Positions 25,713-27,613 of a DNA stretch of 43,843 nt are shown here, piece after piece; the first letter of the stretch is position 1; every line of letters begins with the position of its first letter. The DNA comes from a virus, in IMG/VR virus record IMGVR_UViG_3300020442_001382, positions 1 to 43,843 of that record, one strand, 5' to 3'. The notes beneath the pieces were generated by a model that was not told the origin of the DNA, did not search any database, and was given only the letters and a program-made list of their open reading frames with translations. The translations under genes and the position numbers were made by a program.

Positions 25713-27613
25713 TGTCTCAGAATATCAAGGGCGGACAAGGTTCAGCAGAACTATCCTTCGAGATTGAAGGCGTAGCAGCACCAGGTAACAAACAAAATAA
25801 GTTCGATGAGTTTGTAAATAACGTCACTATCATTGAAGGTATTGATACCCCTGCTATCAGAGCAGTGGTAACCTTCGATGACGCTGCTGACGTTATTAGT
25901 ATGCTATCAGGTGGTGAGACTGCATTTATTACTATCGGATCTGATCATAACGATGCCAAGATCAAGTACACTCTACAACTTTATAAGATTAGTGATAGAG
26001 TTAGAACTGAGAAAAGAAACGTATATAACCTACACTTTGTATCAGAAGAATATCTAAGGAACGAACTTGTCAATTGCTTTGGTTCTCACACTAAGCAGAA
26101 GTGTGAAGACTACGTTGGTAAGTTCCTTGGCAGTGATTACATCAATACAGATAAGTCACTGTACGCTGAGAAGACTGACGAGAAGTTTAGTTTTATCACA
26201 CCCAACTGGAGACCATACAACGCTATCAACTATCTGTGTGAGAAAGCTATTCGTAAAAAGCAGACTGGATCTATCAGACAGAGCGGTTATGTTTTCTATG
26301 AGAATGCTGATGGATTCCACTTTGTATCCATCGATAGTATGATCGAGGATGCTACCAAGCAGAAACCAAAGGGTGAGAAGAGTGGTACTGGTGGAAGACC
26401 TTTACCACAACTATACTACTATGGTTATGGTCAACCAAACCTACCTAACATGCCAGAGGGTGCGAAAGAGTATACGATCATGTCTATCTCTTTCCCCAAG
26501 TCATATAATCTACTAGAAAACCTACGTCACGGTACGTTTGCAGGATATACAATGGGATTTGATCCTGTTGATCTGGCAAAGAGTTCTAGTGGTGATCAAG
26601 GTGCTGATATGCCTCTTGCTCTCGATGAATATGCCATCAGAGAGAAGTGGAAGGACATGGCACACATGAATCCTAAGGGTAAACCACCATTCGATCTTAG
26701 TAAGTTGGCACCACAAGGTGAACCTTCGATGGTGGACACACCACGCAGAGTTAGACTGAAACCTGTCATGACCAGAGGTTATGGTGAACTCAATAAGAAA
26801 GATTCTAAGCAGTCGATGCCTATCGGTGGGCAGAATGTCAAATCTATCACTGAGGCAGCATCATATAACTTCTTCAGAATGAAGAGTCTTTTCTATCAGC
26901 AACTGCAGATAGCAGTTCCTGGTAACCTAGACTTGAATGCAGGTTATGGTGTTCACATTACTATTCCTAAGGCATTACCTAACAAGACCAACAGCACTAG
27001 AATTCCTACTGACAATCGTTGGAGTGGTCTCTGGTTGATTGCTGGTGTTGAGCACAAGTATAAAGATGGGTATCTTACAACATCTTTGTTCTTGGTGAGA
27101 GATTCTACGCCAGAATCTAAAGGTGGTGGTCAGGATGGTCCTAGTGTATCTCCTAATGCTGGTAGGCAGAAAACTGGACGTAAGAGACGTAAGGGTCGCG
27201 TTCGTAAGAAGCGTAGAGGATTGTCACGCAGAAGGAGATCACTCACACTTACTAATAGAAGTAAGAAGGGTGGTAAGAGACGGAGACTCAACCGCAGGAA
27301 GAGAAGGCGGAGAAAGAATAAGGGAGGGCAGCTTAGACGCTTGCGTAAGAAGCGGAGAAAGTCAGGTAAGTCTGGTCGCCGTAAACGGAAGGACAACGGT
27401 CGGAAGCGGCGCGGCGGGCGTCGGGGACGGCAGAGGAGGTCGAAGACGAAACTACGAGGCAAGAAACGTGGTAGGAAGAGGAGAAATAGAAATAGGACTC
27501 CTAATAATAGAGCACCACGGAGACAAAGGAATCGTAGACGTTCTAAGAAGAGGAACAGAGGTAAGAAGAAGCGTAATCGCGGTGGTAGAAGGAGAAGAGG
27601 TCGGAGGGGTTGA
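25712..27613 (+). CDS. gp27: Baseplate central hub protein (gp27-like) with Arg/Lys-rich tail
   Basis: Residues 1-465 form a hub-type protein: AELSFEIEGVAAPGNKQNKF, FDDAADVISML, and later FSFITPNWRPYNAINYLCEKA, then SGYVFYENADGFHFVS, the pattern of gp27/gpD tail hub proteins, ending LIAGVEHKYKDGYLTTSLFLVRD. T4 gp27 is 391 residues. The last 150 residues (484-633) contain 90 Arg+Lys and only one acidic residue, like a protamine. Codons for Arg are mixed (CGT, AGA, AGG, CGG, CGC), and local GC is higher than in the rest of the gene. The hub lies at the tube tip next to gp5, so this tail could touch DNA, the cell surface or gp5. The stop codon is part of the next -35 box. Confidence 0.8.
   Translation: MSQNIKGGQGSAELSFEIEGVAAPGNKQNKFDEFVNNVTIIEGIDTPAIRAVVTFDDAADVISMLSGGETAFITIGSDHNDAKIKYTLQLYKISDRVRTEKRNVYNLHFVSEEYLRNELVNCFGSHTKQKCEDYVGKFLGSDYINTDKSLYAEKTDEKFSFITPNWRPYNAINYLCEKAIRKKQTGSIRQSGYVFYENADGFHFVSIDSMIEDATKQKPKGEKSGTGGRPLPQLYYYGYGQPNLPNMPEGAKEYTIMSISFPKSYNLLENLRHGTFAGYTMGFDPVDLAKSSSGDQGADMPLALDEYAIREKWKDMAHMNPKGKPPFDLSKLAPQGEPSMVDTPRRVRLKPVMTRGYGELNKKDSKQSMPIGGQNVKSITEAASYNFFRMKSLFYQQLQIAVPGNLDLNAGYGVHITIPKALPNKTNSTRIPTDNRWSGLWLIAGVEHKYKDGYLTTSLFLVRDSTPESKGGGQDGPSVSPNAGRQKTGRKRRKGRVRKKRRGLSRRRRSLTLTNRSKKGGKRRRLNRRKRRRRKNKGGQLRRLRKKRRKSGKSGRRKRKDNGRKRRGGRRGRQRRSKTKLRGKKRGRKRRNRNRTPNNRAPRRQRNRRRSKKRNRGKKKRNRGGRRRRGRRG

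Follow-up and report, generated by a model that had tools for sequence, protein, structure and literature searches.

To our knowledge, how the DNA of a phage with a contractile tail crosses the inner membrane of its host is essentially unknown. The part of phage T4 that arrives at that membrane is gp27, whose contacts in the host have only begun to be mapped. In T4, once the tail tip has entered the periplasm and shed its spike, gp27 is proposed to act as the terminal pore, possibly in contact with the inner membrane (PMC3004832). At the inner membrane the protein lies exposed at the tail tip and crosslinks to DamX, SdhA and PpiD, and its C-terminal region binds gp5N (PMC11054660). On PE/PG liposomes N-tagged gp27 binds weakly and C-tagged gp27 not at all; both tagged forms complement (PMC11054660), so the machine tolerates a C-terminal extension. 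Among cyanophages, an orthologue of T4-GC15, a 'hypothetical' of the cyanophage core, was detected in virions of S-SM1, in a study in which we did not find T4-GC15 named as gp27 (PMC3037559).

We analysed a 43,843-nucleotide stretch of viral DNA (IMG/VR record IMGVR_UViG_3300020442_001382, hereafter the window), in which the original prediction, made from the nucleotide sequence, had placed a gp27 hub protein with a 150-residue protamine-like C-terminal tail. The core is of a familiar type; the basic tail on this hub appears to be new, and searches of the open-access literature found nothing relevant on a polycationic or protamine-like extension of a phage hub.

A gp27-type hub and its polycationic tail

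We identified the core by its fold. A first scan with a single core sequence gave no matches, a Pfam search of the protein gave none, and querying the PDB with a sequence profile of the core returned only an irrelevant designed protein; in a PHROGs profile search residues 16–469 matched phrog_350, 'tail protein' (E 7.6e-126). The step that gave an identity was a fold search covering the core, with an AlphaFold2 model built from a 39-sequence alignment, in which pLDDT is mostly 80–95 across the core and below 50 for residues 471–633. The best realigned PDB match was T4 gp27 (1wth_D; Z 26.0, rmsd 3.4, 336 aligned residues, 11% identity; VIA-align), with model residues 6–467 lying on T4 gp27 residues 4–363, and Foldseek matched the core to 2z6b_D (E 1e-15). 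Since T4 gp27 is the best fold match, the predicted name is right; the gene also shares a module with gp5. The counterpart in S-ShM2, 74% identical, is labelled T4-LIKE GC 15, and the cyanophage-core 'hypothetical' T4-GC15 thus gains a firmer identity as gp27. The features of the locus are collected in Table 1.

Table 1. Features of the gp27 locus in window coordinates
Feature	Coordinates	Strand	Basis or content
gp27 ORF	25712-27613	+	ATG start, 633 aa
gp27-like baseplate hub core, residues 1-470	25712..27121	+	AlphaFold2 model, fold match, phrog_350
Gly/Ser/Pro-rich spacer into tail	27122..27187	+	residues 471-492; pLDDT <50 from 471
Polycationic C-terminal tail, predicted disordered	27161..27610	+	residues 484-633: 90 K/R, 1 acidic
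RKGRVRKKRRGL motif	27188..27223	+	sole long invariant stretch across all five tail variants
gp27 stop codon TGA	27611..27613	+	
gp5 (hub OB fold, central spike)	28716..31223	+	phrog_694 baseplate hub and tail lysozyme, E 2.3e-266

On recounting, the composition claimed for the tail proved exact, the 150 residues being 60% Lys or Arg and the single acidic residue an Asp; only the start, given as 27160, needed correction, by one base. Taken from the end of the ordered part, at residue 471, the tail comprises 163 residues with 90 Lys/Arg, 2 acidic residues and a net charge of +88. Residues 488–633 hold no aromatic residue, no Cys and few aliphatics, and 88 of these 146 residues are basic (61 Arg, 27 Lys). 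The most basic 60-residue stretch carries +38 in the tail against +21 in the next protein among the 35 ORFs of the window, a gap beyond chance in this genome, and in about 90 related-phage loci no ORF outside this gp27 family reaches +22 per 60 residues. All six Arg codons are used and Tandem Repeats Finder reported no array there, which upholds the view that the tail is no simple microsatellite and rules out a tandem-repeat origin. CGG makes up 10 of 62 Arg codons in the tail (16%) against about 2% in the rest of the window (Fisher P 9e-6), and AAG 24 of 28 Lys codons (86% against 52%; Fisher P 4e-4); CGG enrichment recurs in other phages' tails, largely at different positions. No tRNA-Arg gene was found in the window, whose tRNA genes (28312–28385 and 32019–32169) are for Val, Thr and Ala, tRNA-Val being identical over 73 bases to S-RIM2 phages with flanking DNA that has no match. 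The other open frames across the tail stretch, 27123–27755 (+) and 27130–27624 (−), appear incidental to an Arg/Lys/Gly sequence with few stops.

Between gp27 and gp5 lie genes for CP12 (27670–27897) and a CpeT-like protein and a small ORF, in an order identical in S-ShM2. The product of gp5, with a Gp5_OB match just under the Pfam cut-off (E 3.5e-5), is the binding partner expected beside the root of the tail. Upstream of gp27, two large proteins (18730–25712) have hydrophobic and basic stretches and cell-wall-hydrolase-like parts, with Phage_lysozyme2 and Peptidase_M15_3 (Pfam) in the first; by position and make-up they may be tape-measure proteins, which cyanophage annotation calls endolysin or hypothetical. 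In the protein directly upstream of gp27 (window 22251–25712; L023:91–3993; L018:381–3998), enzymatic modules appear swapped between close relatives, with C39-type-peptidase-like, T4-lysozyme-like and CHAP/NlpC-like domains recognized by eye from the sequences. Elsewhere the window encodes two tryptophan-halogenase-like flavoproteins (PF04820; 1337–2902, E 1.8e-92, and 33594–34673, E 9.3e-31), further photosynthesis and carbon-metabolism genes (the C-terminal part of a reaction-centre protein, 5–505, and transaldolase, 32911–33597) and, at 14488–15480 (−), a protein of net charge −29 with a Ser/Gly-rich low-complexity C terminus (SSSSSSGSSGSS...).

Origin and maintenance of the tail

The tail recurs in isolates and in other IMG/VR contigs. 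S-ShM2, S-SSM2 and S-RIM14 (genus Ahtivirus) have 596-residue hubs, annotated only as hypothetical or tail protein, with in-frame tails of 129 residues and 57–59 Lys/Arg. The IMG/VR contigs add three more variants, with tails of 129 residues and 64 Lys/Arg (L010, L011, L012, L015, L018, L019), 129 with 56 (L013, L016, L020, L022) and 133 with 64 (L021). In the alignment RKGRVRKKRRGL stands at the start of the basic part in every variant, and an exact-DNA scan found 33 of its nucleotides identical to S-ShM2. Because the tail is in frame in isolated phages as well as in contigs it is not an assembly artefact, and a frameshift or assembly error as its source is ruled out by the recurrence of both frame and motif. 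Among searches with the tail itself, tblastn in phages, where BLAST masks low complexity, gave no match; a tail-profile scan of IMG/VR confirmed no other protein with this tail; and nothing passed in profile searches of Pfam, PHROGs and the PDB, which low complexity defeats.

The nearest sister hubs, L023 (47% identical) and L024 (40%), stop at ...VRDSSPK-TAA and ...VRDSTPK-TAA, about 40 bases before the CP12 gene. Their ends coincide with the point at which the tail starts, and there the window reads on as ...VRDSTPESKGGG.... The remaining hubs among the best 80 of 263 IMG/VR loci, and those of P-RSM4, S-SSM5 and ACG-2014d, reach no further than about 15 residues beyond the core; the annotated lengths (about 430–480 residues) in P-TIM40, ACG-2014j, S-PM2, S-SSM7, ACG-2014f, RHph_N34, S-H38, DSL-LC02 and S-SM2 leave no room for a tail. 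In S-SKS1 (L096) the gp27 homologue is without annotation and its match falls in two pieces. Relatives whose frame ended near residue 480 with a frameshift would have counted against the original prediction; those found to end near residue 467 do so at ordinary stop codons, without a frameshift, and form separate branches. In a maximum-likelihood tree of the cores the tailed proteins form one side of a branch with 100/100 support, with L023 and L024 next, so that the tree needs a single gain. The tail was gained once in Ahtivirus-like cyanophages, and in the comparison of C termini that had been called for it is confined to this clade among the cyanophages examined. Fusion of a separate small basic gene between gp27 and CP12 is ruled out, as the tailless sisters have no such ORF; a scan with the sister alignment for intermediate tail lengths turned up, besides the known loci, only two fragments, of which one is distant.

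The tail is under selection. By the Nei–Gojobori method dN/dS was 0.23–0.55 for tails and 0.12–0.25 for cores, below 1 in all pairs, with some dS values so near saturation that only the direction of the ratio is safe. As a neutral baseline for the tails we used a simple simulation of substitution without stops, at kappa 2.5 and with the base composition of the genome, continued until as many amino-acid differences had accumulated as were observed. From L017 to L021, with 48 differences in 109 aligned tail positions, Lys plus Arg went from 57 to 60 against 39.3 (s.d. 3.7) under neutrality; from L017 to the window, with 62 differences, it went from 57 to 70 against 33.7 (s.d. 3.7), with 1 acidic residue against 7.3. 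Alignment of the low-complexity tail is uncertain away from the motif, but the composition result depends little on the alignment. Basic charge is thus kept over the long term with much sequence freedom, 44–57% of aligned tail residues differing in these deep comparisons. Recent constraint is loose, as shown by the close pair L019 to L022 (dN/dS 0.55), where Lys/Arg fell from 63 to 55, within the neutral range. In frame in relatives and under selection, the tail is genuine, a clade-specific, selected polycation.

Possible roles of the tail

In VgrG the gp5-like parts of the chain come after the gp27-like part. Hubs of VgrG, PVC, AFP and the Algoriphagus CIS align to our core only up to about residue 350 of their 500–640-residue chains. 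Taken with the binding of gp5N by the C-terminal region of T4 gp27, this alignment suggests that the tail leaves the hub near the gp27–gp5 junction, where a trimeric hub would carry three tails, each with a charge of about +55 to +88.

The best explanation we can offer, one that we rate somewhat short of probable, is that a hub tail gained once and selected for its charge acts as an electrostatic tether. After sheath contraction the tip would stand in the periplasm, the spike would depart and gp27 would form the terminal pore; the tails would then serve as polyvalent tethers holding that pore to anionic envelope surfaces, supplementing or replacing the inner-membrane protein contacts made by T4 gp27. 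Their target would most likely be the inner membrane, which in cyanobacteria contains PG and SQDG and is anionic, and possibly also LPS or peptidoglycan, with RKGRVRKKRRGL as a possible, more specific docking site. The weak or absent liposome binding of T4 gp27 indicates that it lacks firm membrane affinity by itself, which three tails could supply. Retention of charge while the sequence drifts fits what is expected of an electrostatic role, and the tail composition, which is devoid of aromatics, is compatible with a membrane-active or cell-penetrating polycation; contact with membrane or LPS, as originally proposed, is plausible. Against a tether, an Arg:Lys ratio of about 2:1 without aromatics is no less suited to binding nucleic acid than to binding membranes, and non-specific electrostatic interactions outside the cell are weakened by the ionic strength of seawater. 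The conservation of one 12-mer also points to specific binding and not to bulk charge. The tail is not essential to the machine, since most cyanophages lack it.

A possible if rather unlikely alternative is that tails around the mouth of the gp27 pore bind emerging phage DNA, or host nucleic acid, so as to start or ratchet entry or to shield phosphates. The Arg-rich, aromatic-free composition would suit such a binder, as would a tail that begins close to the distal end of gp27, as the fold alignments suggest it does, and gp27 lines the DNA channel (PMC3004832). A tight grip at the exit might however slow ejection, and the tail matches no known nucleic-acid-binding family in Pfam, PHROGs or the PDB, a result to be read knowing that low complexity defeats such searches. 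The narrower proposal that the tail holds the leading DNA end in the intact virion is unlikely by analogy with T4, in which the closed gp15 gate keeps the DNA end back and, until ejection, the tape measure presumably fills the lumen (PMC3004832).

We regard as possible but rather unlikely a role in assembly or structure, in which the tail would dock through RKGRVRKKRRGL on an acidic baseplate partner (gp5, tape-measure-like or wedge proteins) and stabilize the baseplate. In favour of such docking, the tail opens with an invariant motif of 12 residues, and nearby proteins have acidic stretches (ORF 22251–25712, for example, reaches −16 per 60 residues). Hub and gp5 also diverged together in the tailed clade: gp5 of the window phage is 52–55% identical to that of the sisters L023 and L024, in a gene order common to tailed and tailless sides. 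However, gp5 is no more acidic in tailed phages (net charge −13 to −19) than in tailless L023 (−17), an unshifted charge that counts against an acidic gp5 partner co-evolved with the tail, and a single docking motif leaves the long, variable remainder without explanation.

It is improbable that the tail gets cut off, or that it acts within the producing cell late in infection, for example on anionic membranes, on ribosomes or on nucleic acid of the host or the phage: polybasic segments readily bind nucleic acids, but this one is fused to a structural subunit, and reading the sequence by eye we saw no separate in-frame start near it. That it is a non-functional extension left by loss of a stop codon and drifting neutrally with biased composition is very improbable, for although the tail varies faster than the core and the hubs of the sister lineages stop cleanly at one position, the dN/dS ratios, a retention of Lys/Arg far beyond the neutral simulation in deep comparisons and the invariance of RKGRVRKKRRGL disfavour neutral read-through.

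A bolder reading, which we consider doubtful, is that this lineage evolved a disordered polycation by which the terminal pore docks on the anionic inner membrane without an intermediary, or by which it catches emerging DNA, so that DNA entry no longer needs a host inner-membrane protein. If true, it would add a new mechanism for the final step of DNA delivery by contractile-tailed phages. The tailed isolates S-ShM2, S-SSM2 and S-RIM14 and the tailless hubs of related phages offer a natural comparison.

Comparison with known hub proteins

The closest described hubs are those of S-ShM2, S-SSM2 and S-RIM14, with a 74% identical core and a polybasic tail bearing RKGRVRKKRRGL as in the window, although their tails are shorter (129 against 163 residues) and less basic (57–59 against 90 Lys/Arg). 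The T4-GC15/phrog_350 hubs of P-RSM4, S-SSM5, ACG-2014d, S-PM2 and P-TIM40 share an orthologous core at 24–36% identity and, in most, the same order before CP12 and gp5, and the protein is a detected component of the S-SM1 virion; in all those examined the chain extends no more than about 15 residues past the core and has no basic tail. To protamines and other Arg-rich polycations the likeness is one of composition only (very high Arg, low complexity, no aromatics, predicted disorder); we found no sequence or profile match, and the window tail is fused to a phage hub.

T4 gp27 (1k28, 1wth, 2z6b, 9mkb) has the fold in common over residues 6–467 (Z 25–26), with gp5 in the same module, and is the presumed counterpart in the trimeric hub and in the pore role. 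At about 11% identity, however, it ends soon after the common fold, and solved T4-type chains span 361–379 residues, in line with the original statement that T4 gp27 has no comparable polycationic tail. Extra domains on a hub–spike chain are known from the VgrG and eCIS spike proteins, fused gp27–gp5 chains with a gp27-like domain; whereas their chain runs on into gp5-like parts, the window phage has a separate gp5 gene and its hub continues as a polycation predicted to be disordered.
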